Source: Arthrospiribacter ruber
GTDB lineage: Bacteria; Bacteroidota; Bacteroidia; Cytophagales; Cyclobacteriaceae
Direction: 5' to 3'
NCBI RefSeq assembly: GCF_019343195.1
Contig: NZ_RPHB01000006.1
Span: 248,001-312,000, forward strand
DNA: 64,000 bases
Part shown: piece by piece, positions 1 through 14,500 of the stretch
Numbering within the stretch: position 1 is the first letter of the stretch
Layout: the number at the start of each line of letters is the position of its first letter
Made by a program: the position numbers and the translations under genes
The notes under the pieces: generated by a model
Seen by the model: only the letters and a program-made list of their open reading frames with translations
Databases searched by the model: none
What the model was told of the DNA's origin: nothing

Positions 1-17
1 CTTTTTTATTTTTAGGT

Positions 18-269
18 ATGTATACTGTCTATATTTTATATTCCTCCAAAACAAACAAATACTATATTGGATCCACAAATGACATTCAGGCTAGGATAAG
101 ACATCACAATTGTGGGGCAACTCCTTCTACTAAATCAGGAGCACCTTTGTGGGTGATAAAATATACTGAAATTCAACCTGATAAAAGTGCAGCAAGAAAA
201 AGAGAATTAGAAATCAAGAATAAAAAATCGCGAAAGTACATTGAATTTCTGATTAGCTCAGCTGGCTAG
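18..269 (+). CDS. small GIY-YIG domain endonuclease
   Basis: This 83-residue protein is a single GIY-YIG nuclease domain of the UvrC/URI type. The variant motif is visible as VYI (residues 4-6) and YIG (16-18). It is followed by the helix with R26 and R28, and by a charged C-terminal helix with candidate catalytic glutamates at 63 and 65. Family members cut DNA, but free-standing short copies in Bacteroidota have no assigned role. The last codons (SSAG-stop) are read from a tRNA D-arm-like sequence, so the gene ends inside a tRNA fragment. The ATG at 18 gives a full-length domain, so the gene is probably complete despite lying at the window edge. It does not look like part of the hemN transcription unit. 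Confidence 0.8.
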   Translation: MYTVYILYSSKTNKYYIGSTNDIQARIRHHNCGATPSTKSGAPLWVIKYTEIQPDKSAARKRELEIKNKKSRKYIEFLISSAG

Positions 270-290
270 AGCGTCCCGACGCAGGTCGGC
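251..290 (+). other. tRNA-like fragment (D-arm remnant)
   Basis: The stretch GATTAGCTCAGCTGGCTAGA reads like tRNA positions 7 to about 26, with the D-stem GCTC/GAGC and a GG-containing loop. The next bases form a short hairpin (CCGAC, loop GCAG, GTCGG), not a normal 7-base anticodon loop. No T-arm or acceptor 3' strand follows, so this is not a functional tRNA. The stop codon of the GIY-YIG gene lies within it. The likeliest reading is a leftover of insertion or recombination at a tRNA gene, or a degenerate tRNA copy carried with the nuclease gene. Confidence 0.5.
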
Positions 291-365
291 TCTTTTCAAA
301 GCCAAGATTTTTGATTTACCAATTACGAGGATCATTGATTTTCAATCATCTACACCATTTTTCAG

Positions 366-449
366 CTCTTGTCTCTTGTCTCTTGTTTCTTGTCTCTTGT
401 TTCTTGTCTCTTGTCTCTTGTTTCTTGTCTCTTGTTTCTTGTCTCTTGT
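366..449 (+). repeat. heptanucleotide tandem array, 12 units of YTCTTGT
   Basis: Twelve consecutive 7-base units read CTCTTGT or TTCTTGT with no other change. Only the first base varies, between C and T. The array is noncoding and sits between the GIY-YIG/tRNA fragment and the hemN control region. A shorter version of the same unit occurs at 40780-40814 beside rpsA. The array ends 35 bases before the FNR-type box of hemN. Such short arrays can vary in length by slippage. No function is known to me. Confidence 0.9.
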
Positions 450-484
450 TTCAAATCTCTCATCTCCCGTCCCCAATTTTCCAA

Positions 485-506
485 AAACATGACTTTTATC
501 AGGTTT
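485..506 (+). promoter_or_regulatory. FNR/CRP-type operator upstream of hemN
   Basis: The half-sites AAACATGAC (485-493) and ATCAGGTTT (498-506) flank TTTT. They match the perfect palindrome at 11151-11174, in front of the cbb3 operon, at 16 of 18 arm positions. The 5-4-5 core (ATGAC-N4-ATCAG) has the geometry of FNR sites (TTGAT-N4-ATCAA). The centre, 495.5, lies 58.5 bp before the last G of the -7-like CATCTTTG at 547-554. The same offset occurs at the cbb3 site. Binding by an FNR/CRP-family regulator is inferred. Confidence 0.6.
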
Positions 507-546
507 TGATCAAATTCGCATCATCCTTTTTGAGAAAAAACCACTT

Positions 547-554
547 CATCTTTG
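547..554 (+). promoter_or_regulatory. putative -7 element of hemN promoter
   Basis: CATCTTTG matches the Bacteroidota -7 consensus TAnnTTTG at all but the first base. No TTTG is found at the usual -33 spacing, which fits a promoter that needs an activator bound at the upstream palindrome. The hemN ATG follows 18 bases downstream. Confidence 0.4.
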
Positions 555-571
555 CATTCAAAGAAAATCAT

Positions 572-1933
572 ATGAATCAGCGCAAAGCTTCTCTGGTAGA
601 AAAGTACAATATACCGGCACCAAGGTATACTTCTTATCCAACTGTTCCATTATGGTCCAATGATCTTAGTGGGGAGTCTTGGAACATCTTGGTAAAAAAA
701 GCTTTTGATGACTTTAATGACTCAGAAGGGGTAACTCTTTACATACACCTGCCTTATTGTGAAAGTCTATGCACCTACTGTGGGTGTAACAAAAGGATCA
801 CTAAAAACCATCAGGTAGAAATTCCTTATATAGATGCTGTTATTGAAGAATGGAAACATTACCTGGAAATCTTCGGGAAAAACCCTAATCTATCAGGAAT
901 TCATTTAGGTGGAGGCACACCAACTTTTTTTTCGCCAGAATCCTTACAAAAACTTCTGGGGTTTATAAGAGATAGTGCAACTGTGCTACCTCATGCAGAA
1001 TTCAGCTTTGAAGGCCATCCCAACAATACTACCAGAGAACATTTGCAGACCTTGTACAATTTAGGATTCAGGAGAGTTTCTTATGGAATTCAGGATTTTG
1101 ACCTTGAGGTACAAAAAACCATTCATAGGATCCAAACCTTCGAAAAGGTGAAAGAGGCCACAGAGTTGGCCAGAGAAATCGGATACACTTCTGTCAATTT
1201 TGATTTGATCTACGGTCTACCTCATCAAAATATGGCCACCATTACTGACACTTTCTCTAAAGTTGCCTCCCTCAAACCTGATCGGATTGCCTATTACAGT
1301 TATGCCCATCTCCCTTCAGTATTCAAAGCCCAGAAAAGTTTTGAGGCTTTTCTCCCCAATGAAACGGAAAAAAGAAGACTGTATGAAAAAGGAAAGGAAA
1401 TCCTATCGGATATGGGATATTTTGAAATAGGTATGGATCACTTTGCTGTAGAAAACGAGCCACTTTATGAAGCTAAGCTTGCCAAAAAGCTACATAGAAA
1501 TTTCATGGGCTATACGACCTCCCCCTCTAGGGTTTTGATAGGCTTGGGCAACAGTTCTATTTCGGATATCTACTATGCTTATGGCCAGAATGACAAAAAT
1601 ATCGATACTTATAAGCAATCCGTTTTGCACAGTCAGTCTCCTATCCAAAAAGGCCATGTGATGTCCGAAACTGACCTCCATACCAAATCCCTGATCTTGG
1701 ACTTGATTTGCAATCACAGTACAGATTGGTCATACGACTTTTTCACTTCTTTAAACTATCAACAGCTGGAAAAGCTCAATGAATATCAAATGGAAGGCTT
1801 GATCAATTACAGTCCGAAAGGCTTGGAAATCCTCAAAGAAGGAATACCTTTTATACGCATTATCTGCATGACATTTGACCAAAGGATGATGGCCAAGAGC
1901 GAAAAACAATTTGGATTCAGCAAAGCCATCTAA
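572..1933 (+). CDS. hemN: oxygen-independent coproporphyrinogen III oxidase
   Basis: HemN is a radical SAM enzyme that decarboxylates coproporphyrinogen III to protoporphyrinogen IX without oxygen, in cytoplasmic haem synthesis. The [4Fe-4S] ligands follow the HemN pattern C63-x3-C67-x2-C70-x-C72, and a GGGTPTFF SAM-binding stretch follows near residue 112. The 453-residue length and the N-terminal YNIPAPRYTSYP stretch fit true HemN better than HemW. The ATG at 572 was chosen because the longer open frame runs back through the heptamer array from a TTG and would put the operator inside the gene. The convergent cbb3 operon and a shared operator type suggest haem supply for microaerobic growth. 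The 3' end stops one base before the safE-like gene. Confidence 0.95.
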   Translation: MNQRKASLVEKYNIPAPRYTSYPTVPLWSNDLSGESWNILVKKAFDDFNDSEGVTLYIHLPYCESLCTYCGCNKRITKNHQVEIPYIDAVIEEWKHYLEIFGKNPNLSGIHLGGGTPTFFSPESLQKLLGFIRDSATVLPHAEFSFEGHPNNTTREHLQTLYNLGFRRVSYGIQDFDLEVQKTIHRIQTFEKVKEATELAREIGYTSVNFDLIYGLPHQNMATITDTFSKVASLKPDRIAYYSYAHLPSVFKAQKSFEAFLPNETEKRRLYEKGKEILSDMGYFEIGMDHFAVENEPLYEAKLAKKLHRNFMGYTTSPSRVLIGLGNSSISDIYYAYGQNDKNIDTYKQSVLHSQSPIQKGHVMSETDLHTKSLILDLICNHSTDWSYDFFTSLNYQQLEKLNEYQMEGLINYSPKGLEILKEGIPFIRIICMTFDQRMMAKSEKQFGFSKAI

Positions 1934-1934
1934 A

Positions 1935-2639
1935 TCAACGGCACATGGTCATTTCTATTTTTTCATCACCATAATCAAATACCTGAAGCTTGGGGCTTAC
2001 ATAATGGATCCCCAAGCCCAATCCTCTGATGATAAACAATATCCCAATAAACATTGCGAAATAAGGCATTGTCTTGGTGAACTTATTTCTCCAATTGATG
2101 GAAACCAACTTCCCGGACAACATGACAACCATTAGCATGGGAATGGTTCCAAGTCCAAAAAAGGACATGTACAGTGCTCCCTGTATCGGACTCTGCAAGG
2201 CCATGGAAGCCACTAAAGCAAGGTAAACCATACCGCAAGGCAAAAGCCCGTTTAGCAAGCCTGTCACTACAAATGCAGAACTTCCACCTCTTTTGATGTA
2301 TTTACCCAAGCTGGACTTCAAGCGGAAGACTGCTCCAAAAAAGCCGGATCCCGCTATTAACTTTTCTGATTTTTTGTAAAAAAAGGCCAGAAGAACTATC
2401 AGCGCTCCCATAGTCAATGAGAGCCACTGCTGCACACCTGCCAAAGCCAAAGTAAAACCCAAAAATCCTACTAATCCTCCCAGCAGGGAATAGGTAAATG
2501 TCCTTCCCAAGTTATATAGGAGCTTGTTTCTCAAAAAAGCCGAACTGTCTTTGGAAGAAATGGCCATAGCAATAGGACCGCACATTCCCAAACAATGGAA
2601 TGAACCCAGAAATCCAAGAAGAAATGCTGTCCAAAGCAT
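1935..2639 (-). CDS. SafE/TauE-like membrane protein of the cco cluster
   Basis: This 234-residue, roughly six-helix membrane protein is of the kind annotated as sulfite exporter TauE/SafE (UreH-like). The first helix carries C16 and C20 in HCLGMCGP, a motif seen in homologues that accompany cbb3 oxidase genes. In that setting a role in metal or redox handling during oxidase assembly is more likely than sulfite export, but this is inference. It is the last gene of the minus-strand cco operon, three bases after ccoH, and converges with hemN. No strong terminator is visible in the one-base gap. Confidence 0.8.
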   Translation of the reverse strand: MLWTAFLLGFLGSFHCLGMCGPIAMAISSKDSSAFLRNKLLYNLGRTFTYSLLGGLVGFLGFTLALAGVQQWLSLTMGALIVLLAFFYKKSEKLIAGSGFFGAVFRLKSSLGKYIKRGGSSAFVVTGLLNGLLPCGMVYLALVASMALQSPIQGALYMSFFGLGTIPMLMVVMLSGKLVSINWRNKFTKTMPYFAMFIGILFIIRGLGLGIHYVSPKLQVFDYGDEKIEMTMCR

Positions 2640-2642
2640 GGC

Positions 2643-3068
2643 TTAAATATTTATTTTCTTTTCAAGATAAAATTCCTTACCACCCTCCTTCCAGGTCATT
2701 TTCACCCTCCAATAGCCTTCCTTAAGACTTGAAAGATCTACAGAATTGGAGTTGATTTCCAAAATCTCAAAATCTATCTTTCTATCCAGCCGTGCATCTG
2801 ATGGCCTAAAAAAGTGAAGCGTTCCCACTGAACCTACCTTTAGGTGAAGTGAAAGGGACTTTATCCCTTCATGATATTCAATCGCATTCATATCCAAATG
2901 ACTTGCATTGATCATTCTGTCAATCTGCTCCTGGTACTTGATCTCCTGTTCGTAGTAATCATGGGTCACCAGGTGTATATCATCCTGCTTGACACAAATG
3001 GTTACCATGGTGATCATGATAGCTGCAAATGCTACCAAAGTGAGTGTAATACCTTTTCCCCAATCCAT
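2643..3068 (-). CDS. ccoH: FixH/CcoH-like oxidase assembly protein
   Basis: This 141-residue protein has one N-terminal membrane helix (about residues 5-25) and a periplasmic beta-rich domain, as in FixH/CcoH. CcoH helps assemble or stabilise cytochrome cbb3 oxidase. The position directly after ccoG (11-base gap) and before the SafE-like gene is the usual order in Bacteroidota. No catalytic motif is expected. The family is divergent, so the name rests on context, length and topology as much as on sequence. Confidence 0.85.
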   Translation of the reverse strand: MDWGKGITLTLVAFAAIMITMVTICVKQDDIHLVTHDYYEQEIKYQEQIDRMINASHLDMNAIEYHEGIKSLSLHLKVGSVGTLHFFRPSDARLDRKIDFEILEINSNSVDLSSLKEGYWRVKMTWKEGGKEFYLEKKINI

Positions 3069-3079
3069 AGCTGTTTCGA

Positions 3080-4513
3080 TTATTGGTTGTTGTGTTGTTT
3101 TTGGGGCAATGGCCCCATAAAACTTGTTTTTATTCTATCTATCACTTTTCCGTTTTGCGTGAGCAACAAGACTACCTTATCCTGTACTGACTGAATATCT
3201 TCCCCTTGTTTCACCAGAAAAAACCTACCTTCAAATTTACCCTGGGCATCTAAGGTCCAATTTTGGTCTCCTACTATTTCTATTCTATAGGAATCGTTTT
3301 CAGGAATGAGATTCACTTCCTGTTTTTCGAAAGTTTTGTTAATAAATGTCACCTCGTACAGGTTGCTGATATCTCCCGTATCCCTAGCTTGATAAGTCAT
3401 CCCCCTGAAGCGTGTCACAGTAGCAGCCAGATCATCTCTAGTGCTCAGCAAGGCTACAAAGGCCCCAATCAGTACCAAAAGCAAAAATGAATACAGCCTT
3501 ACTCTAGGAGTCATGAGTTTTTGTGTTTGCTGAAGGACACTATTATCTGAGGCATATCGGATTAATCCTGTAGGCCTGTCGACTTTGAGCATGACTTCAT
3601 CACAGGCATCAATGCAGGCCGTACAATTGACACATTCCATCTGTACTCCATTTCTGATATCAATACCTGTGGGACACACCTGCACACAGAGTGTACAATC
3701 CACGCAATCCCCCTTAGGATCTTCTTCAACCTTGTTTTTTCGGATAGGACCGCGAGGCTCTCCCCTAACATGGTCATAGGTAACATTGATTGAATTGGCA
3801 TCCAGCAATACTCCCTGAAGCCTACCATAGGGACATACTACAATACAGGCCTGCTCTCTGAACCAAGAGAATACAAAGAGAAATATTCCTGTGAAGGCCA
3901 TCAATCCGATAAATCCGGCTAAATGCTCTGAAGGCGGTTGACTTACAATTTCCACTACCTGATCTACCCCTATCAGATACGCCATGACTGTATGGGAAAT
4001 TAATAAGGAGATCAAAACAAAGATGAACATCTTTAGCCCCTTTTTCCTTAATTTTTCTCCATTCCAAGGCATGGCGTTCAACTTTCTTTGCTGATTGGCA
4101 TCTCCTTCTATCCAATATTCTATTTTCCGGAAAACCATCTCCATAAACAAGGTCTGCGGACATGCCCACCCACAAAATACCCTACCGAATACTGCTGTGA
4201 AGAGAATGACAAACACAAAGAAGATCAGCAAAAGAAAAATCAACAGATGCGTATCCTGAGGCCAAAACGCAGCCCCAAAAATGATGAATTTTCTTTCGAA
4301 TATATTGAACAGCATATAGGGCCTTCCATCGATTTTGATAAAAGGTCCAATAAACAAAATAGCCAGTAATACCCAAGAGAGGTAAGTCCTCCATTGGTAG
4401 AACTTGCCACTCACTTTCTTTGGGTAGATCCAGTTTCGTTTACCGTCTGCTTGGACTGTCCCCAAAGAATCCCTGAATGTATCAGGCTGAAGATTTGAGT
4501 ATTTACTGGCCAT
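3080..4513 (-). CDS. ccoG: cytochrome c oxidase accessory protein CcoG (FixG)
   Basis: CcoG is a membrane iron-sulfur protein needed for cbb3 maturation; related proteins reduce copper for the oxidase active site. This copy has 477 residues, membrane helices near 43-60, 88-110, 160-182 and 200-218, and one near 335-355. Two ferredoxin-type ligand sets are clear: C270-C273-C276-C280 and C294-C297-C300-C304. Further CxxxC motifs lie at C114/C118 and C223/C227. The C-terminal third is a periplasmic Ig-like domain. It follows ccoP by 43 bases in the same operon. Confidence 0.95.
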   Translation of the reverse strand: MASKYSNLQPDTFRDSLGTVQADGKRNWIYPKKVSGKFYQWRTYLSWVLLAILFIGPFIKIDGRPYMLFNIFERKFIIFGAAFWPQDTHLLIFLLLIFFVFVILFTAVFGRVFCGWACPQTLFMEMVFRKIEYWIEGDANQQRKLNAMPWNGEKLRKKGLKMFIFVLISLLISHTVMAYLIGVDQVVEIVSQPPSEHLAGFIGLMAFTGIFLFVFSWFREQACIVVCPYGRLQGVLLDANSINVTYDHVRGEPRGPIRKNKVEEDPKGDCVDCTLCVQVCPTGIDIRNGVQMECVNCTACIDACDEVMLKVDRPTGLIRYASDNSVLQQTQKLMTPRVRLYSFLLLVLIGAFVALLSTRDDLAATVTRFRGMTYQARDTGDISNLYEVTFINKTFEKQEVNLIPENDSYRIEIVGDQNWTLDAQGKFEGRFFLVKQGEDIQSVQDKVVLLLTQNGKVIDRIKTSFMGPLPQKQHNNQ

Positions 4514-4556
4514 TTTTATTTACTTTTCATTCTTTATTATCGACTGAGACTTGTCG

Positions 4557-5489
4557 TCATTCGGCCTCTTCTACACCTAGCTCTTCTTCACCCAACACAT
4601 CGATAGGCTCTTCAATAGTAGGCTGATACTTTTCCCCTTGCGGTTCTTTAGGATTGGCAGGTGTAGTATTTGTCAAAGTCATGATGTAGCTGGAAACCTG
4701 TTGCATTTCTTCAGGGCTCAGCTGATCTTGCCATGGGATCATCCCCTTTTCAACGACACCATATTTGACCACCGTGAAAATATCCTGAATGCTGCCCCCA
4801 TGGATCCAATATTCATCGGTAAGGTTAGGACCTACACCACCTCCACCATCCATGGCATGACAGGCAGCACAATTGGCATCATATATTTTCTTCCCTGTAG
4901 TCAAAGCTTCGCGCGTTGCATCAAAGACCACCGAGTTTTCATCGATTGAACTGGCAGCCTGTGCTTTATATGCCTCTATTTGAATAGATGCTATGCGAAG
5001 TTCTTCTTCATATTCTTCCACTTGTGTCTTTCCCAGACCCAACACGGAGAAATAGGTAAAGTATAACACCCCAAATGCAATGGTAATGTAAAACACATTG
5101 GCCAACCAAGGCGGCATGTGGTTGTCCAGCTCTACAATGCCATCATAACTGTGGTCCAACTCCAAATCCCTTTCTTCTTTACTTCCGGCAGGCTTAAGCC
5201 TACCGGTAATGTATTTGAGTTTGAATTCATCCCACCAGGATGGTTGATTCGCCAAAGCCGGATTTTGTCTTTTGAAGACTTCTGCCATAAAGCTCATCAT
5301 GTACACCATCAGCACAAGAAGAATCAGGATAACGAGCAACACCACTCCTACGATAATCAGTAAGGTCAATTGACTGCTGTCCATTTTCCTGAGGTCCTCC
5401 ACCCATTGCAATTCGCTGCTCTGGGCCATAGCCGGCATGCACATCAACATACCGGCCATCATCATCATTATGGATTTAAACTTTTTCAT
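4557..5489 (-). CDS. ccoP: cbb3 oxidase c-type cytochrome subunit CcoP, single haem
   Basis: CcoP passes electrons from soluble cytochromes to CcoO and CcoN. The 310-residue protein has a signal-like N-terminus (1-22), membrane helices at about 41-65 and 131-151, the CcoP N-terminal domain stretch MPPWLANVF between them, and one haem c site C207-A-A-C210-H211. Proteobacterial CcoP has two haem motifs, so this is a mono-haem form. The C-terminal tail is rich in Pro and Glu. The start overlaps the ccoQ stop in an ATGA, indicating translational coupling. The early helix at 41-65 is additional to the classic single-anchor CcoP. Confidence 0.92.
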   Translation of the reverse strand: MKKFKSIMMMMAGMLMCMPAMAQSSELQWVEDLRKMDSSQLTLLIIVGVVLLVILILLVLMVYMMSFMAEVFKRQNPALANQPSWWDEFKLKYITGRLKPAGSKEERDLELDHSYDGIVELDNHMPPWLANVFYITIAFGVLYFTYFSVLGLGKTQVEEYEEELRIASIQIEAYKAQAASSIDENSVVFDATREALTTGKKIYDANCAACHAMDGGGGVGPNLTDEYWIHGGSIQDIFTVVKYGVVEKGMIPWQDQLSPEEMQQVSSYIMTLTNTTPANPKEPQGEKYQPTIEEPIDVLGEEELGVEEAE

Positions 5490-5668
5490 AGCTGCTGTTT
5501 TTTTTGATGTTCTTCGTCAAAAGGCAGATCCTTCATACGACTGATGTAATTTTTATCGGCTCTGATCACCCATATAAACATCCCCACAAAGAAGATCACA
5601 AAGATCAAAAGGGAAATGATGGGGTAGATTTCTATATTTTCTATCGAAGTCAAAATATCCTTTTTCAT
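5486..5668 (-). CDS. ccoQ: cbb3 oxidase small subunit CcoQ (FixQ-like)
   Basis: This 60-residue protein has one membrane helix (about 14-36) followed by a basic stretch (RADKNYISRMKDLPFD) typical of CcoQ/FixQ. CcoQ is a non-catalytic subunit that stabilises cbb3 oxidase. It lies 11 bases after ccoNO and overlaps ccoP by four bases. The assignment relies on size, topology and its fixed place between CcoNO and CcoP. Confidence 0.85.
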   Translation of the reverse strand: MKKDILTSIENIEIYPIISLLIFVIFFVGMFIWVIRADKNYISRMKDLPFDEEHQKKQQL

Positions 5669-5679
5669 ATCAATGAAGG

Positions 5680-7812
5680 TTATGGGTTAGTAGCTGTCGT
5701 TTTTTTGATATCAGTACCCAAGCGCTGCAAATATGCGATCAAGGCCACAATCTCTGAATCGGGCATCACTTCCACTCCCGAAGACTGCAGGTTGGAAACT
5801 ATCTGTGCAGCTTGTGTATCCAGGTCCGAATTGGCTACCTGATCATATCCATCAGGGTATGGAACACCCAATTTTTGGAGGGTTCTGATTTTGGCCGGCA
5901 CCTCCGAATGGTCCATGATATTGGTAGCCATCCAAGGATATGGTGGCATCAAGGATCCCGGAGACATACTTCTAGGATCTACCATATGGTGATAATGCCA
6001 GCTGTCGGGATATTTACCACCTACCCTATGCAAATCTGGCCCAGTACGCTTGGAGCCCCAAAGAAACGGTCGGTCATAGACAAATTCTCCTGCTTTGGAA
6101 TATTCCCCATACCTTTCTGTTTCTGACCTGAAAGGTCTGATCATTTGGGAATGACACCCTACACAACCATGGGAAATGTAAAGATCTCTTCCCTGCAATT
6201 CTAGGGGAGTATAAGGTTCCACACTACTGATGGTCGGCACGTTGGACTTGACAAGCAATGTTGGGATGATTTCTACCGCACCACCTATCGCAATAGCTAT
6301 CGTGGCAAGAATGGTGAAGAAAACAGGTTTTCTCTCCCATGCCCTGTGCCAAAACTCACCTTTTTCAGTCACATGGGCCTTGAGCGCAGGAGCTTCATCA
6401 GCCTCTTCGGCCATAAACTTACCCTGCTTGGCAGTTTTCACCATGTTATACACCATCAAGAATGCGCCTGAAAGGTATAGTAGGCCACCAAATGCCCTTA
6501 ACATGTACATGGGTACAATTTGGATCACTGTCTCCAGGAAGTTGGGATATGCCAATCTACCAGCTTCTGTGAATTCTTTCCACATTAATGATTGAGTCAA
6601 AGCAGCCACATACATAGGCAATGCGTAGAAAAGGATACCTATTGTGCCCATCCAGAAGTGGGTATTGGCCAGCTTGGTGGAATATAGGTTCGTCTTCCAC
6701 ATTTTTGGCCATAGCCAGTAAAGCATAGCAAAGGTGAAGAAACCATTCCATCCCAAGCCACCGATGTGCACGTGTGCTACTATCCAGTCTGTATAGTGCG
6801 CTATGGCATTGACGTTTTTCAAGGAGAGCATTGGGCCTTCAAAAGTCGCCATACCGTATGCGGTCACAGCCACCACCATAAATTTCAGTACAGGATCAAC
6901 CCTTACCTTATCCCAGGCACCCCTCAAAGTCAAGAGTCCATTCACCATACCTCCCCAAGAAGGGGCTATCAACATGATCGAGAAGACCACGCCAAGTACC
7001 TGTGCCCATTCCGGCAAAGCAGTATACAGCAAGTGGTGCGGACCCGCCCAGATATAAAGGAAAATCAAAGACCAAAAGTGGATGATGGATAGCTTGTATG
7101 AATATACAGGTCTGTTGGCTGCTTTGGGAAGATAGTAATACATCAATCCCAAAAATGGAGTTGTCAGGAAGAACGCTACCGCATTGTGGCCATACCACCA
7201 CTGAACCAAAGCATCCTGTACACCAGCATAGGCAGAGTAACTTTTAAAGAAAGAAACTGGCAGTGCGAGGGAATTGAATATGTGTAATACCGCCACCGTG
7301 ACAAATGATGCCAAGTAAAACCAGATTGCCACATACATGTGCTTTTCTCTCCTTTTGATCAGAGTTCCGATCATATTGGCACCAAAAGCTACCCATACCA
7401 ATGCGATAAGGATATCGATAGGCCATTCCAGTTCTGCATACTCTTTGGAAGTAGTCAGACCAAGAGGTAAAGTGATGGCTGCCAAAAGTATAATCAGCTG
7501 CCAGCCCCAGAAATTGATCCAGCTGAGGGCTTTACTCCACATAGGAGCCTTCAGAAGGCGGGGCATAGAATAATAAATCCCGGCAAAAATCGCATTACCT
7601 ACGAATGCAAAGATCACAGCATTGGTATGCAATGGCCTGATCCTGCCGAATGTAGTGTAAGGATTGCCCAAGTTGGCTTCAGGGAGAAACAGCTGCGTGG
7701 CAGCGATTACCCCGACCAACATTCCGACGAGGCCCCAAGCTATGGTGGCGACCCCGAAGTACTTTACGATCTTATTGTCGTAAGCAAACTTTTCAAGAGT
7801 TGTTCCTGACAT
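5680..7812 (-). CDS. ccoNO: cbb3 oxidase fused subunits I and II (CcoNO)
   Basis: One 710-residue chain joins the catalytic subunit CcoN and the mono-haem cytochrome CcoO, as in many Bacteroidota. CcoN part: haem ligand candidate H62 (PLHTNAV), Cu-B histidines H209 and H259/H260, and H347/H349 in the HVHIGGLGWNG motif. CcoO part: a membrane anchor near 495-520 and haem c site C550-V-G-C553-H554. The enzyme reduces oxygen to water with high affinity and pumps protons. The ATG at 7812 lies one base after the ccoS stop; the longer frame starts at a TTG inside ccoS and is rejected. It is the core gene of the operon. Confidence 0.97.
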   Translation of the reverse strand: MSGTTLEKFAYDNKIVKYFGVATIAWGLVGMLVGVIAATQLFLPEANLGNPYTTFGRIRPLHTNAVIFAFVGNAIFAGIYYSMPRLLKAPMWSKALSWINFWGWQLIILLAAITLPLGLTTSKEYAELEWPIDILIALVWVAFGANMIGTLIKRREKHMYVAIWFYLASFVTVAVLHIFNSLALPVSFFKSYSAYAGVQDALVQWWYGHNAVAFFLTTPFLGLMYYYLPKAANRPVYSYKLSIIHFWSLIFLYIWAGPHHLLYTALPEWAQVLGVVFSIMLIAPSWGGMVNGLLTLRGAWDKVRVDPVLKFMVVAVTAYGMATFEGPMLSLKNVNAIAHYTDWIVAHVHIGGLGWNGFFTFAMLYWLWPKMWKTNLYSTKLANTHFWMGTIGILFYALPMYVAALTQSLMWKEFTEAGRLAYPNFLETVIQIVPMYMLRAFGGLLYLSGAFLMVYNMVKTAKQGKFMAEEADEAPALKAHVTEKGEFWHRAWERKPVFFTILATIAIAIGGAVEIIPTLLVKSNVPTISSVEPYTPLELQGRDLYISHGCVGCHSQMIRPFRSETERYGEYSKAGEFVYDRPFLWGSKRTGPDLHRVGGKYPDSWHYHHMVDPRSMSPGSLMPPYPWMATNIMDHSEVPAKIRTLQKLGVPYPDGYDQVANSDLDTQAAQIVSNLQSSGVEVMPDSEIVALIAYLQRLGTDIKKTTATNP

Positions 7813-7813
7813 G

Positions 7814-7996
7814 TTACTTTGATTTAGGTGTTGGTACTTTTTTGCTATTGTTTGATTGTTTGTTTTCGAAGAGTATCCTGATCGCAGGAGTATGGCTATC
7901 TTCAAACTGCCCCCCTTTCATTGCCCTGAAAAACAGAAACAAGAAAGAGCCTGCTAGAATGAGACTGATCGCTATGAGTATGAATATGACTTCCAT
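7814..7996 (-). CDS. ccoS: cbb3 oxidase maturation protein CcoS
   Basis: This 60-residue single-helix protein matches CcoS: an N-terminal membrane segment (about 3-24), then an FFRAMKGGQFED stretch typical of the family. CcoS is needed to insert haem b and copper into the cbb3 catalytic subunit. It sits two bases after ccoI and one base before the ccoNO start, so translation of the three is probably coupled. Confidence 0.9.
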   Translation of the reverse strand: MEVIFILIAISLILAGSFLFLFFRAMKGGQFEDSHTPAIRILFENKQSNNSKKVPTPKSK

Positions 7997-7998
7997 GT

Positions 7999-10431
7999 TC
8001 AGAATATTTTTTCCTTTAATCCTTTTTTATATGCTATATAATTAGTGCTCAATGTGGTGAAAACCACTACTGAAATACTGCTTATCGGCATCAGAATGGC
8101 GCAGAATACCGGACTGACCAAGCCCTGCACAGCGAAGAAAACACCAATGGTATTGTAGGTGAAGCTCAGCCCAAAACTTGCCTTTATAATTTTGCGGCTT
8201 GTCTTGGCAAATTCCAGGAAAGCAGGCAGCTTATCCATCACAGAAGCATCCATAATGGCATCAGAGGCAGGTGAAAAATTACTGACCTTGTCTGTAACGG
8301 CTATACCTACATGGCTTTCCTGTAATGCTCCGGCATCATTGAGACCATCCCCCACCATGAGGGTGGTGGCGCCTTCATCGTTAAGTGCACTGAGGTAGCA
8401 GAGCTTGTCTTTTGGGCTTTGATTGAAATTCAGCTTGACTTCGTCACCAAACAGCCTTTTTAAATGATCTCTTTCATGATCTTGATCACCTGAGAGCAGG
8501 TGCACTGTTCTTTCACTTTCCAGATTTTTGACGACCTGATCGATATTTTTTCTGAGGCCGCTCTGTATAAAAAAGTATCCTAACACATTACCTTCTACAG
8601 AGAAAAAAACCAGGTTGCCGCCTTCAGGCAAATTTTGACCGGAAGCGCCCACGAATGAAGCCGAACCTAATTTCACTTCCTGATCTTTGTAAACACCTCT
8701 AAGACCCTGTCCATGAACTTCTTCCACATTCACCAATTTTTCGGGAATTACATTTTTCATCCAGGCATTGATCCTATTGCTCAAAGCATGGGTAGATTGA
8801 CTTACCAAACCTTTGATGATAGATTTGGATTCTTGGGACAATTCCTCACCTTGGAAGCTTACCTTCGCCTGAGAAGGAGCTGTCAAGGTTCCTGTTTTAT
8901 CAAAGACAACCGTGTCTGTTTTTGCAAGTTTTTCGATCACTTGGGCATTTTTGAGGTAGAATTTACCTTGCCCCAAGACCCTAAGTGAGTTTCCCAAAGT
9001 AAATGGAGTCGACATGGCAAGAGCACATGGACAGGTAATGATCAATACTGAGGTGAAAGCCAAGATCCCCAAGGAAACTTCTCCTAGATAAAGCCAAAAA
9101 GCCAAAGCTGATAATGCAATCAGAATAACTGTAACAGTGAATTTTCCTGAGATTTTGGTGGCTAAAGATTCCAGCCCCTTTTCTTTTGACTTATCAAATG
9201 TGTCACTGTTCCACAGGTCAGTGAGATAGCCTTGCGAAGGGGACTTTTGGACTGCCAGCATGATGGCCCCACCTTTTTGTCTGCCGCCAGCATAGATCAG
9301 CTCTCCTTTTTTTCTGATCACAGGTACTTCTTCTCCTGTAACAAAACTGTAATCCACTGCTGCTTCCCCATCCAGGAGAATACTGTCAGAGGGGATAAGT
9401 TCTTCATTTCTTACCAAAATGATATCTCCAACATTAAGCTTGGAAAGGGGGATTACTTCTTCCCTATCTGCCACTACCCTGCTTACTGCTATTGGGAAAT
9501 AAGATTTGTAATCCCGGTCAAAAGAAAGCGTGTCATAGGTCTTTTGCTGGTAATATTTTCCTATCAGGAGAAAAAAGAGCAGCCCTCCCAATGTATCCAT
9601 GTAGCCTTCATTTCCCAAAAGGAAAATGTCATAAAGGCTATAGAAAAACAGGGTCAAAATCCCTATTGCAATGGGCACATCCATATTGATGGCTTTGTTG
9701 CGGATAGATATCCAAGCAGACCGATAATAATCTGTCGCGGAGTAAAAAAATACCGGAAGTGCCAGCATGACATTCAGGTAATTGAAGGTCTTTTTGAACC
9801 CATTGCCCAATAGCTCAGCTTCCGCAAAGTACTCAGGAAGGCTGAACAGCATCATATTGCCAAAACAAAATCCTGCTACTGCAAGGCGGTATATCAACCT
9901 CTTATTGGATGGGGAAACTGTCTTTCTTTCACTGTCCGCAAGGTTGATATGTGGTTCATATCCGATTTTGGAAAGCAATACTACCACTTCCTTAAGGCTG
10001 ACTTTTTGGTGGGCAAACTTCACTTGCACTTTTTTCTTGATGAAGTCCACTCTGCCTGACACTATTCCCTCATTGAGCTTGTGGAGGTTTTCCAACAGCC
10101 AAATGCAGGAAGCGCAATGTATCAAAGGAATATAGAAAGTAATATGGGTTTCGTCTTCATTCCTGAAGTCGACCAGCTTTTTTATGATATCCACATCATC
10201 CAGGTAATCAAACCTATTGTCTCGTTTGGCACTGTTCTTTTGATTGATTCCTGGACTATCGGCAATGTCGTAATAGCTACAAAGGTCATTATCACTAAGT
10301 ACTTCGTATACCAGCTTACAGCCTGTACAACAAAACTCTTTTTGATCAAAATGAAGGATATCTTCCTTGCATGCCTCACCGCAATGGTAGCAAGTATGAG
10401 TAGAAATCGGGGTATCAGTTATCTTTCCCAT
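7999..10431 (-). CDS. ccoI: copper-transporting P1B-type ATPase CcoI (FixI)
   Basis: CcoI is an inner-membrane copper ATPase that supplies copper for cbb3 assembly. The 810-residue protein starts with a cysteine-rich metal-binding segment (C14-x2-C17, C34-C35-x2-C38) typical of cbb3-linked ATPases. It continues with an HMA domain (C106-A-S-C109), the transmembrane metal motif C467-P-C469, the phosphorylation site D511-KTGT and the hinge GDGLND near 700. The linked ccoS and ccoNO genes support copper export for oxidase assembly over detoxification. It begins 15 bases after the universal-stress-like gene. Confidence 0.95.
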   Translation of the reverse strand: MGKITDTPISTHTCYHCGEACKEDILHFDQKEFCCTGCKLVYEVLSDNDLCSYYDIADSPGINQKNSAKRDNRFDYLDDVDIIKKLVDFRNEDETHITFYIPLIHCASCIWLLENLHKLNEGIVSGRVDFIKKKVQVKFAHQKVSLKEVVVLLSKIGYEPHINLADSERKTVSPSNKRLIYRLAVAGFCFGNMMLFSLPEYFAEAELLGNGFKKTFNYLNVMLALPVFFYSATDYYRSAWISIRNKAINMDVPIAIGILTLFFYSLYDIFLLGNEGYMDTLGGLLFFLLIGKYYQQKTYDTLSFDRDYKSYFPIAVSRVVADREEVIPLSKLNVGDIILVRNEELIPSDSILLDGEAAVDYSFVTGEEVPVIRKKGELIYAGGRQKGGAIMLAVQKSPSQGYLTDLWNSDTFDKSKEKGLESLATKISGKFTVTVILIALSALAFWLYLGEVSLGILAFTSVLIITCPCALAMSTPFTLGNSLRVLGQGKFYLKNAQVIEKLAKTDTVVFDKTGTLTAPSQAKVSFQGEELSQESKSIIKGLVSQSTHALSNRINAWMKNVIPEKLVNVEEVHGQGLRGVYKDQEVKLGSASFVGASGQNLPEGGNLVFFSVEGNVLGYFFIQSGLRKNIDQVVKNLESERTVHLLSGDQDHERDHLKRLFGDEVKLNFNQSPKDKLCYLSALNDEGATTLMVGDGLNDAGALQESHVGIAVTDKVSNFSPASDAIMDASVMDKLPAFLEFAKTSRKIIKASFGLSFTYNTIGVFFAVQGLVSPVFCAILMPISSISVVVFTTLSTNYIAYKKGLKEKIF

Positions 10432-10446
10432 ATACTATCCTTCCGA

Positions 10447-11082
10447 TCAAAATGAGAGATAAAAAGAAAGCCTATTGTACCACATTCCACCTTTATAAAA
10501 ATGGAACAACACCTTAGCCAGATCAGCCTGATAACTTTTGGTAGTGACCAAAAGGGTACACTTATGCTTGACAGCATAGGACCAAAAATCCCCTATCCTG
10601 TTGAAATTGAACTTAATAAATGATGTTTCTGCGGTTTTGGAAGCAAGTAGTTGTACGATTTCCTGCTCTTCCCTCTGCTTGGATTTTGGAATAAAACAAG
10701 GAGATATGATTGTAGCATTGCTATCATGGATATTTTCTTCAAAAAGCTCCACAAAGTTTCTGATCAATCTGGCTGAAGCCGGAGTACCGTCATAATGAAA
10801 AAGCAGTTTGTCGAAGTTCAGCTCATCATCAAACAATAGAACCGGAATATTGCAGGGCTCCTTTTGAAGTGGAAGAGGCTTCTCATGCTGATGCAGCCAA
10901 TCCAGCACCTTAGGCAAATGGGCGGTATAAAGAGAAGGTCCTTCAAGTGGGCTACAGGAAATTTCTTGACCACCCTGATTGACATGATGCGAAAAGCCGT
11001 CCGGCAATCGCTTGCAAAAGTGAGTGGCAATGATTTCCTCCGGAAAAGTAAAGCCTGATTTGTTTTTGATTTCCCCCTGCAT
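10447..11082 (-). CDS. universal stress protein (Usp)-like protein, first gene of cbb3 operon
   Basis: This 211-residue soluble protein has a Usp-like pattern in its second half: LLFHYDGTPASARLIRNFVELF, a second-domain strand-helix start, then a KHKCTLLVTT strand near the end. The first half is weaker, and the G-x2-G-x9-G-S/T ATP-binding motif of classical UspA is not evident, so nucleotide binding is doubtful. It heads the cco operon, 15 bases before ccoI, and directly follows the FNR-type operator and -7 box. This suggests induction under low oxygen. The exact role is unknown. It could also be a Usp-fold scaffold without enzymatic function. Confidence 0.65.
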   Translation of the reverse strand: MQGEIKNKSGFTFPEEIIATHFCKRLPDGFSHHVNQGGQEISCSPLEGPSLYTAHLPKVLDWLHQHEKPLPLQKEPCNIPVLLFDDELNFDKLLFHYDGTPASARLIRNFVELFEENIHDSNATIISPCFIPKSKQREEQEIVQLLASKTAETSFIKFNFNRIGDFWSYAVKHKCTLLVTTKSYQADLAKVLFHFYKGGMWYNRLSFYLSF

Positions 11083-11103
11083 GGCATTCTTTGTTTGATG
11101 TTA

Positions 11104-11111
11104 CAAATCTA
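11104..11111 (-). promoter_or_regulatory. -7 element of the cbb3 operon promoter
   Basis: On the minus strand this reads TAGATTTG, a perfect TAnnTTTG. No -33 TTTG is present at 17-21 bases upstream. The FNR-type palindrome centre lies 58.5 bp upstream of the final G. With a start site near 11101 this corresponds to the class I activator position around -61.5. Confidence 0.6.
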
Positions 11112-11150
11112 GAGGGGGCAGTATTGGAATAGAGTGACAAATAGAAGGTC

Positions 11151-11174
11151 TAAACATGATAAAAATCATGTTTA
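11151..11174. promoter_or_regulatory. FNR/CRP-type palindromic operator of the cbb3 operon
   Basis: This is a perfect 10-bp inverted repeat: TAAACATGAT (11151-11160), spacer AAAA, then its exact reverse complement (11165-11174). The core ATGAT-N4-ATCAT has the spacing of the FNR consensus TTGAT-N4-ATCAA. It lies 69 bases before the ATG of the Usp-like gene. On the other side it faces only the decayed DUF1080 gene. A near copy precedes hemN. The binding protein is not encoded in this window. Confidence 0.75.
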
Positions 11175-11227
11175 GCATCGGTTGCAAAAAATTCTGGCTT
11201 TTTCCCTTCTATTTTTTAATTTAAGGA

Positions 11228-11530
11228 ATGCAAAAACATATTCTTTTACTCTTGGTTCTCGCTTCCTTCAGATTAAAATCTTCTGTAGCCCAAACTCTTT
11301 TCAATGGAAAAGAAAGAAGAATCAGAAATCTGACAGAAGGATCAGAGAGGCCTCTCGGGGAATGGAACCAAATGATCATAGACTGCAAAGAAGATCAGAT
11401 CACTGATTAGGTAAATGGAGACATGGTCAATCATGGATTTAATGCTACTGCTCAAAAGGGCCAGATTGCAATTCAGGCTGAAGGTGCTGAAGTAGAATTC
11501 AGAAAAATTGAATTGAATCCATATCCTTAA
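11228..11530 (+). pseudogene. decayed DUF1080 (3-keto-disaccharide hydrolase-like) secreted protein
   Basis: The reading frame opens with a signal peptide-like sequence and the DUF1080 N-terminal stretch TLFNGKE. It then jumps to the family C-terminal segment NLTEGSERPLGEWNQMII, so roughly 100 or more internal residues are missing. An in-frame TAG at 11408-11410 interrupts it. The frame then resumes perfectly with VNGDMVNHGFNA, GQIAIQAEGAEVEFRKIEL and a stop at 11528-11530. This is clearly a deletion plus a nonsense mutation of a secreted DUF1080 protein. The end overlaps the stop of the large surface protein gene on the other strand by four bases. Confidence 0.85.
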
Positions 11531-14500
11531 AATAAAGCTGTCACCTGCATCCTTCCAATATGAACGAGTCTGCCAAGCCCCTCAGAATTTCTGCCCTCAT
11601 AGACCATGTTCATTTGAAGCCCTTCTCCGATTTTTTGTAACCAGTTCAGGGTCCAAGTGACATTGCTTCCATTGGTAAGGGCCTGAAGCATCTCATAACC
11701 GGCAGGCGAGTTAGCTATACCATTGTAATCAATATGAATGTACCTGAAATTGGCATTAATCGTGGTCTTGATGGCCTTTGCATACCTGAAATCCAAACCG
11801 GTCTGATGCAACACAGCCCTTTCGTCCAGTTCTGTGTTGGCCAGGTTGATTTTGTCTGTATAGTTGTACGTAAAAGTAGTCCGGAATATACTGCTCGGCT
11901 GCCATGCAAATTCCGGACCTATTCCTGATTGCTCAATATTATAATTGCGGTTGTCCAAAAAATCAGAATTTGCAATGCGCTTTCCTGTCTGTCCGATAAT
12001 CCTGATATTGAGGTTAGGATTTAAGTTGTACCTGGTATTGAGCCTGAGGTCTTTCTGAATCAGGTCATCAAAGCCACCGGCAAGCAACTGCTTATTCTGA
12101 CTGTCAAATATAGAAAAGTCAAAACCATACTTTGCCGATGCCCTGTTAAAAAAGAAAGAGGAGCGGATGACTTGCCTGACAGAAAGCAGGTCTTCATCGG
12201 CAAAGCCTCCGACCAGCGGATTAATCCTGTCCCAAAACTCTGAGGAGGTGATTTTCTTTTCAATACTGACACTGCTATTGTTCGAAAACCGCTGTAAAAA
12301 CTGACGGATACCGCCTTCCTTGCGCCAAGCATCAGGAAATTTGGCATTGAGCCTGTAGTTGAAAATGGTGGTAAAAGCCTGAACAAAATCTGTGGTGGGC
12401 ACAAACACTTTGATAAAGTTTTTTTCTTCCGGATTGATCGCTATATAAAACTCGTTTAATTGCTGAATCCCATCTCCATTGTCATCCCTCCATGCATGGG
12501 TACCTTCTCCTGTTGGCACGGGCAAAAAGACAAATTCTCTCCTGAATTCCCTCCCATTACCCAAAGCATAGCTAAGCTCATTCCTTACATTTCCATTCCA
12601 TAGCGTCCCCAGATAGTCAACTTTCCCCAACACAGTGGTTTCCTTTTCTTGGGAAATCCTGACAAACTCCAACTCCCTATAAGTAAATGTAGCACTTAGG
12701 TCGTGTCCATTGAACCTTCTTTTCAACCCAAACATGGTCTGGAAAGCCTCTGTATCTGCCCTAAGTTCACCTGCTACAGGAAACTTATCCTCTCTGACCG
12801 AAGCATTTATAAAAAATGAGTACGGCAAAGTATCATTGCTGTTGAGGTAGGCTTGATGCTCCAAAAAATTCATGGCCGTACTGACCACAGAATCCCTTTC
12901 AGTATCTCTCACCGCATTTCTGTCTAGCATGATCTTATACCCCGGTACCAAAACCTTGGACCTATATTGTATATCACCCGTGTACCTTACCCAAGATGAA
13001 TTCAAGTCCCTGACATCCGAATCCAGCAGGAAAAAATCATTCCTTACAAAAAAACGTTTGCCCATTTGCTGGTTCCACCTCGCTACATGCTGGGTACCGG
13101 AAAGTATGTTTCCCCTGTTCCTAAAGTTAAACCTATAAGAAGCCAAGTTATTGGCATCCTTTTGAAACTCAAACTCAGTATTGAAAAGTCTCTCATGCCC
13201 GGCAAGGGCGGCATCTTCAGGAGTGAGACTCCAGTCCCGGTCAAATTCTATATACCTTAATCGGTCAATAAAGCTGAAGTTTGTAGAGTTGTATTCAAAT
13301 TCAGTCAGAGCATTAAGGGTATATCCTTTGAATTTGTCAAACTTCCTGTTCTGTGAAAGGACTCCGGACTTGATTCCAAAGCCCTGATTGTTTTCGTTAT
13401 CTATTTCCGAAAAAAGATTATCATCCCTCTGAGATATGGCCAATTCCGTAAATACCTCTTCGTGGCTACTGAGCCTCACCCTTGCCCCAGTGGTAAACAT
13501 TTGTCGCTTGTTTGGCGCTGGTAATGGCGACATAATAGAATAATTGCCTTGCTGCACTCCATTGATTCTTGGACGAAACAAAAAGACAGGCCCATTGGCG
13601 ATCTGTCTGTCTCTTACATAATCCCCATTGCCCTGTCCGACTTCACTGAAAGAAACTGCGAAATGCGCCTCTTCGGGATTGGTACTGTATTCAAAAAACT
13701 CTATCGGAAGCCCTTGATCGTCCACATCCCTCACTCTTCTGTAAAGCACCCTATTCGGATCAAAAGCAACGCTGTCAACCCTAGGCACAGCAGCAGCATC
13801 AATATTATCACCTACAGATGCGAGCAAGGCTTTGTCCGCATCAGAAAACTCAAAAAACAAAGGCCTGTTTCTATTGTCCTGTTCTCGGTAAAAATTCATG
13901 TACAAGGTTACCTTATCGGTTTCCTGTATGTGGTTGGCAGAAATGATGGATCTGGAAAAATTCCTCTCCGCATATTCAAAGTCAATTCTCACCCTGGAAT
14001 ATTGGGTAATGAGCACATTGGGTGTGAAAGTAATTTCCCCTTGATTGTAGTCAATCACATAATCATAGTTGAAGCCTCTTTGCAATTGCTTTCCATCCAA
14101 AAACACTTTTTCAGAATTTGCCATCACGATCACAAATCTTTCATTTTGAGGTCCTGGAATTCGGTAAGGACCTAATGTTCCTTCACTGATTTCCAGAATA
14201 ATGGAAGCAAACTTACCTTTGGCCACAGAAGCAGAACCTTGAGTGGATGCCCGCCACTTTTCCCCGATGGTATAATTGCTGGTAAGCTGGGCTCCTTGGA
14301 CGTTTTTATAATACCTCAAAAACTCCGACTTTCTTTGCTGGAGCACCACATCTCCGGCTGCTAAGTTAAACTTGTCATTGTACAGCTCTACCAGAACATT
14401 GTCGAAATCCTGAAGCTGCTGGGTGTTTCCTTCCGGCTGAAAGGGTACATTTTGATCAGTGATACTTGCCCGAATATTCAGGTTGTCGGCCAGTTGCCCA

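Follow-up and report, generated by a model that had tools for sequence, protein, structure and literature searches.

The region upstream of hemN in Arthrospiribacter ruber carries a double-site element that, judged from its sequence and conservation, is real, lies far outside what chance would produce and belongs to a conserved regulon of larger size. Taken as a whole, the observations are best explained if this region is a promoter dependent on a CRP/FNR-type activator, most likely driven by an FNR-like protein, referred to here as type A, and active at low oxygen; we consider this reading highly probable. The window analyzed is a stretch of 64,000 nucleotides belonging to a 5.36-Mb genome (G000, contig C17).

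Results

The hemN and cbb3 promoters share a two-part architecture

The hemN gene (572-1933, + strand; ATG start codon at 572) encodes a 453-aa oxygen-independent coproporphyrinogen III oxidase of the radical SAM type. It is a true HemN (TIGR00538, 413.7 bits against a curated cut-off of 324.95), with 73% and 67% identity to its counterparts in the closest named genomes, Indibacter alkaliphilus and Aquiflexum lacus, respectively. Its distal operator, AAACATGACTTTTATCAGGTTT (485-506, + strand), consists of the arms AAACATGAC-TTTT-ATCAGGTTT, with the core TGAC-N4-ATCA at 490-501, and is kept before hemN orthologues. The centre of this operator lies 58.5 bp from the last G of a -7-like box, CATCTTTG (547-554, + strand), which agrees with the Bacteroidota sigma-A box TAnnTTTG at 5/6 positions, the sole mismatch being a C as the first base. 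A degenerate proximal site in a TGA-N6-TCA frame, of which only the TCA (521-523) is kept, stands at 512-523 (+ strand), centred 36.5 bp from the same G. Immediately 5' of the promoter, the 7-bp unit CTCTTGT is repeated in tandem 12 times (89% matches) at positions 366-449, and gattagctcagctggctagagcg at 250-275 is similar to the 5' portion of a tRNA gene. No tRNA was called at 250-275, and an Rfam scan of positions 1-12000 gave no match, i.e., no RNA element was recognized there.

The operon for the high-affinity cbb3 oxidase (about 11082 down to 1935, - strand) is convergent with hemN, the ends being two bases apart, so that the two promoters bracket an 11-kb island. It is headed by a gene for a 211-aa protein (10447-11082) without a match in Pfam or NCBIfam models, whose family occurs 10 times downstream of this type of promoter. 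Domain and family scans identified a ccoI-type copper P-type ATPase (7999-10431) and a fused ccoNO for cbb3 oxidase subunits I/II (5680-7815; NF011053, 1283.8 bits, above the cut-off; COX1 and FixO). A ccoP-like c-type cytochrome subunit (4557-5489), a ccoG-like ferredoxin-type membrane protein (3080-4513) and a FixH-like protein (2643-3068) were assigned from sequence and gene order, and the last gene (1935-2639), for a ccoH/sulfite-exporter-type membrane protein, from gene order and a weak match below the cut-off. All of these genes are on the - strand, as is their promoter. A motif search located its distal operator, the perfect palindrome AAACATGATTTTTATCATGTTT (11152-11173), with the arms AAACATGAT-TTTT-ATCATGTTT (read from 11173 to 11152). 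A degenerate proximal site follows at 11135-11146, with its TCA kept at 11137-11135, and then the -7 box TAGATTTG (11104-11111; 6/6 of TAnnTTTG), whose last G is 58.5 bp from the centre of the distal operator and 36.5 bp from that of the proximal site. On the other side of this operator (11230-11530), a short secreted-type reading frame broken by an in-frame TAG looks like a gene remnant.

The original prediction held that the hemN and cbb3 operators are identical at 16 of 18 arm positions, that both stand at the same 58.5-bp offset from the last G of the -7-like box, and that two such loci are unlikely to arise by chance. The first two statements are accurate, and the third was confirmed by an operator search of the window allowing up to 3 mismatches, with the palindrome counted on both strands. 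This search returned 3 matches against 0.10 expected, a number reached by none of the shuffles, and it found no operator beyond the hemN and cbb3 sites. The combination of core, TCA and TTTG likewise occurs in the window only at hemN and cbb3, and 0 times in 200 first-order Markov windows.

Both palindromes have the TGA-N6-TCA core of CRP/FNR-family sites and conform to TGAY-N4-RTCA. The box TTGAT-N4-ATCAA, canonical for Anr/FNR of Proteobacteria, is not found at hemN and cbb3, where the core is preceded by A or C and followed by G or T rather than by T and A. Sigma-A promoters of this type carry a -33 TTTG element; no such element is conserved at its expected place in the aligned promoters, where the proximal TCA stands instead. 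The sigma-A box TAnnTTTG of Flavobacterium psychrophilum covers positions -12 to -5 (PMC9723704). On this transcription start scale, borrowed from another family, the distal and proximal sites would be centred at about -63.5 and about -41.5.

The element is conserved before hemN orthologues

Orthologues of hemN were drawn from 78 genomes, each representing a different genus of the family, and the upstream regions of the 30 best of the 78 were scored. All 17 nearest orthologues keep the site, 16 at exactly 58.5 bp and one (G052) at 59.5 bp; two more distant genomes (G037 and G036) also have it at 58.5 bp. TCA is found at +31 in every operator-bearing orthologue but G052, in a set that was not selected for the proximal site. 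In G052 it is at +32, so that the proximal site keeps its distance from the -7 box despite the altered distal spacing. It is the distance between the elements that is conserved, not the sequence separating them. In G016 and G074 the operator pair is present with TTTA instead of TTTG. Directly before hemN, the site is missing from the majority of the more distant genomes, and several of them have it before a gene group closed by hemN. No tandem site was detected at the hemN loci of Weeksellaceae (the Chryseobacterium group, L019-L031), which means that the rule does not hold for the whole phylum.

The original prediction was staked on the hemN motif accompanying the cbb3 site in relatives, and the nearest relatives with the cbb3 site all have the hemN site. 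Its proposal that hemN and the cbb3 operon form one low-oxygen regulon is supported, as the same two-part promoter is kept together at both units in relatives; the role of low oxygen is what we infer.

Spacing is fixed and a second site stands 22 bp downstream

To assess spacing, 41 genomes were searched for TGAYNNNNATCAK separated by 34-54 bases from a downstream TANNTTTG, the sample being taken by genome and not by spacing. Among the 150 matches listed, 40 fall at 58.5 bp, against a mean of 5.5 for the 20 other spacings (maximum 9; Poisson 2e-21). These 40 promoters, for which the first site and the -7 box had been the sole criteria of choice among the matches listed, were then used for the second site: TCA is present at +31 in 21/40 and TGA at +22 in 14/40, with 0-5 occurrences at other positions. 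A second TGA-N6-TCA site stands exactly 22 bp downstream of the first. It had been overlooked in the original prediction, and both hemN and cbb3 retain its promoter-proximal TCA; the plain single-operator reading was dropped because this site appeared.

It could be argued that AT-rich upstream regions resemble one another by chance, as the core is short and the spacing histogram of this genome alone is weak (9 matches at 58.5 bp, but 11 at one other spacing). This is refuted by the shuffles, by conservation in hemN orthologues, by the family-wide spacing peak and by the near-empty controls, and we rejected it as having a practically negligible probability.

The tandem promoter is shared by a larger regulon

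The strict tandem pattern was found in 67/78 genomes of the family, mostly in 1-5 copies and up to 9, with 2 control matches in total. A sample from the phylum gave frequent matches in several families belonging to the same class as this one, as many as 14 in one genome, and counts close to background outside the class. An ORF start lies nearby in 139/144 distinct tandem promoters, at a median of 30 bp below TTTG. The downstream gene groups, named from scanned representatives or window genes where given and otherwise from a reading of their sequence, are hemN (23), universal-stress-like proteins (15), the 211-aa cbb3 leader (10), ccoNO (9), ccoI (5), FixH (5), another Usp-like group (5), pta (4), the kinase of the REC-CRP operon (3) and PEP carboxykinase (2), besides single cases that include glutamyl-tRNA reductase (hemA).

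The original prediction had also suggested searching the genome for further copies at the same offset. In this genome, tandem promoters precede pta and the kinase/REC-CRP operon in addition to hemN and cbb3, while the single-site pattern occurs at a Usp/SDR pair and in a stretch by the anaerobic ribonucleotide reductase gene nrdD. The regulon is larger than the hemN and cbb3 units alone. Its wider content (cbb3 assembly genes, Usp proteins, pta, hemA, a sensor kinase) is what FNR/Anr-type regulators control. A 601-aa protein without a Pfam or NCBIfam match is encoded 3' of a 58.5-spaced site on another contig (L122, 510-2315; G000 C20).

An FNR-like protein is the leading candidate regulator

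The genome encodes seven CRP-type proteins, among them type A (G000 C1:48052-48762), which combines cNMP_binding (PF00027, 76 bits) and HTH_Crp (PF13545, 66.8 bits) domains. Conservation to the two closest relatives is 92-93% for type A, against 73-74% for HemN. It aligns with FNR of Aliivibrio fischeri and E. coli (5e44, 5cvr and others; 6e-21 in a PDB sequence search), and the solved sequence nearest to it is another Crp/Fnr protein, 2gau. Nearly all complete type A sequences have a Cys-x2-Cys corresponding to FNR Cys20 and Cys23 and an equivalent of FNR Cys122. An equivalent of Cys29 is absent, so the four-cysteine 4Fe-4S set (C20, C23, C29, C122) is incomplete; a third cysteine occurs at variable positions, and there is an extra invariant Cys138. 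Type A would thus work like FNR as far as its targets go, yet it is not classed as FNR proper.

Of the type A genes, 13/35 have a tandem site within 1 kb, compared with 2/31 of the REC-CRP genes and 0/27 of the other non-REC paralogues. An own TGA-N6-TCA site was found 55-77 bp 5' of the type A gene in 18/19 close-clade genomes, mostly at a fixed spacing to TANNTTTA. This box, at +22, would mean autorepression; a box at +35 (TAnnTTTG-like, in 7) would mean self-activation at the same -41.5 distance. The regulon is probably run by this FNR-like protein, whose gene adjoins such sites and carries its own. The motif is present in 43/45 genomes with type A and in 24/33 without it (p 0.007), a value that is only indicative because the genomes are related. 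In the 24 genomes that have the motif and no close type A protein, another CRP/FNR member, a REC-CRP fusion or other, must serve.

The same promoters might instead answer to the REC-CRP response regulator that accompanies a PAS histidine kinase (C19:233704 onward), the kinase sensing oxygen or redox. This operon has its own tandem promoter in this genome, 6/31 REC-CRP genes have a tandem site within 3 kb, and several tandem-rich genomes have REC-CRP without a close type A protein. We nevertheless find this unlikely, since the presence of REC-CRP does not predict the motif (31/36 vs 36/42), its genes are within 1 kb of a tandem site less often than those of type A, and a tandem site before the kinase is equally expected of a mere target gene. 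The locus itself (L185, 1205-4340; G000 C19) comprises the PAS histidine kinase and a REC-cNMP-HTH_Crp fusion under the tandem promoter, and fusions of this kind occur widely in the family.

A second FNR-like protein, with a CxxC-x4-C motif, is encoded between norCB-like genes and a nirK-cytochrome fusion (L199, 2367-6827; G000 C20), where the divergent promoter has a perfect palindrome of the same class that is conserved in G039. The sites could belong to a denitrification regulon that answers mainly to nitric oxide or nitrite through this protein. That palindrome, AAACCTGATGTAGATCAGGTTT, lies between its gene and norC both here and in a relative, and hemN is a DNR/NnrR target in some Proteobacteria (PMC1274295). 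Such a regulon seems still less probable than control by REC-CRP, as 0/27 such paralogues have a tandem site within 3 kb, the palindrome on C20 does not have the 58.5-bp spacing, and the regulon is dominated by cbb3, Usp and pta genes.

Discussion

With type A as the most likely regulator, active at low oxygen, two adjacent dimers would bind the same face of the DNA, one near -63.5 and the other near -41.5, the 22 bp between them amounting to about two helical turns. The proximal dimer would stand in for the missing -33 element and recruit sigma-A RNA polymerase in a class II-like manner, while the distal dimer would hold it there and contact the alpha subunit. Activity at low oxygen would let an oxygen-independent enzyme provide haem at the very time when demand for the haem-rich cbb3 oxidase arises. 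In E. coli class II/III CRP/FNR-dependent promoters, a site at about -41.5 has a second dimer upstream, as proposed here; unlike in those promoters, the -41.5 site here is the weak and degenerate one, its partner is only 22 bp away, and the arrangement is known from sequence alone.

Co-regulation of hemN and cbb3 genes by FNR/Anr-type proteins is already known in Proteobacteria; the Anr core regulon of Pseudomonas includes hemN and cbb3 oxidase genes (PMC6588701). Anr/FNR systems of Proteobacteria resemble the one described here in having a CRP/FNR-type palindrome before these genes. They also count ack-type fermentation genes among their targets and are activated at low oxygen, a condition that we infer here. 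The promoters described here differ from them in their ATGAY/CTGAY half-sites, in the paired site 22 bp further in, and in the Bacteroidota -7 box without a -33 element.

Within the same phylum, and with the same promoter type, transcripts for the cbb3 oxidase and for enzymes of haem synthesis are reported to rise in oxygen-limited F. psychrophilum (PMC9723704). The main text of that study names no such operator or regulator, and the terms FNR and Crp are absent from it. PgRsp, CrpPg and HcpR of Porphyromonas/Bacteroides are also CRP/FNR proteins of Bacteroidota (PMC6955866, PMC12040651, PMC1274295). PgRsp is described as haem-binding and redox-related, the HcpR2 sites are GTAAC-N4-GTTAC, unlike the sites here, and the passages covered, for CrpPg the abstract, report no hemN/cbb3 regulon. 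Our literature search found no paper on a Bacteroidota FNR/hemN/cbb3 operator, and the fixed tandem geometry appears to be undescribed in this phylum as far as the literature searched shows.

A broader proposal would make this a class-wide promoter type of Bacteroidia, in which a fixed pair of CRP/FNR dimers (about -63.5 and -41.5) replaces the -33 element, is run by FNR-like proteins with non-canonical cysteines and defines the low-oxygen regulon; we see the chances of this generalization as evenly balanced. Oxygen control of respiration is poorly described in Bacteroidota, though its members abound in soil, water and hosts. With these promoters, the action of CRP/FNR activators could be tested directly on a sigma-A that recognizes -33/-7 rather than -35/-10 boxes. 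As the fixed two-site geometry is nearly free of false matches across the 78 genomes, the low-oxygen regulon may be readable from sequence in many uncultured relatives.
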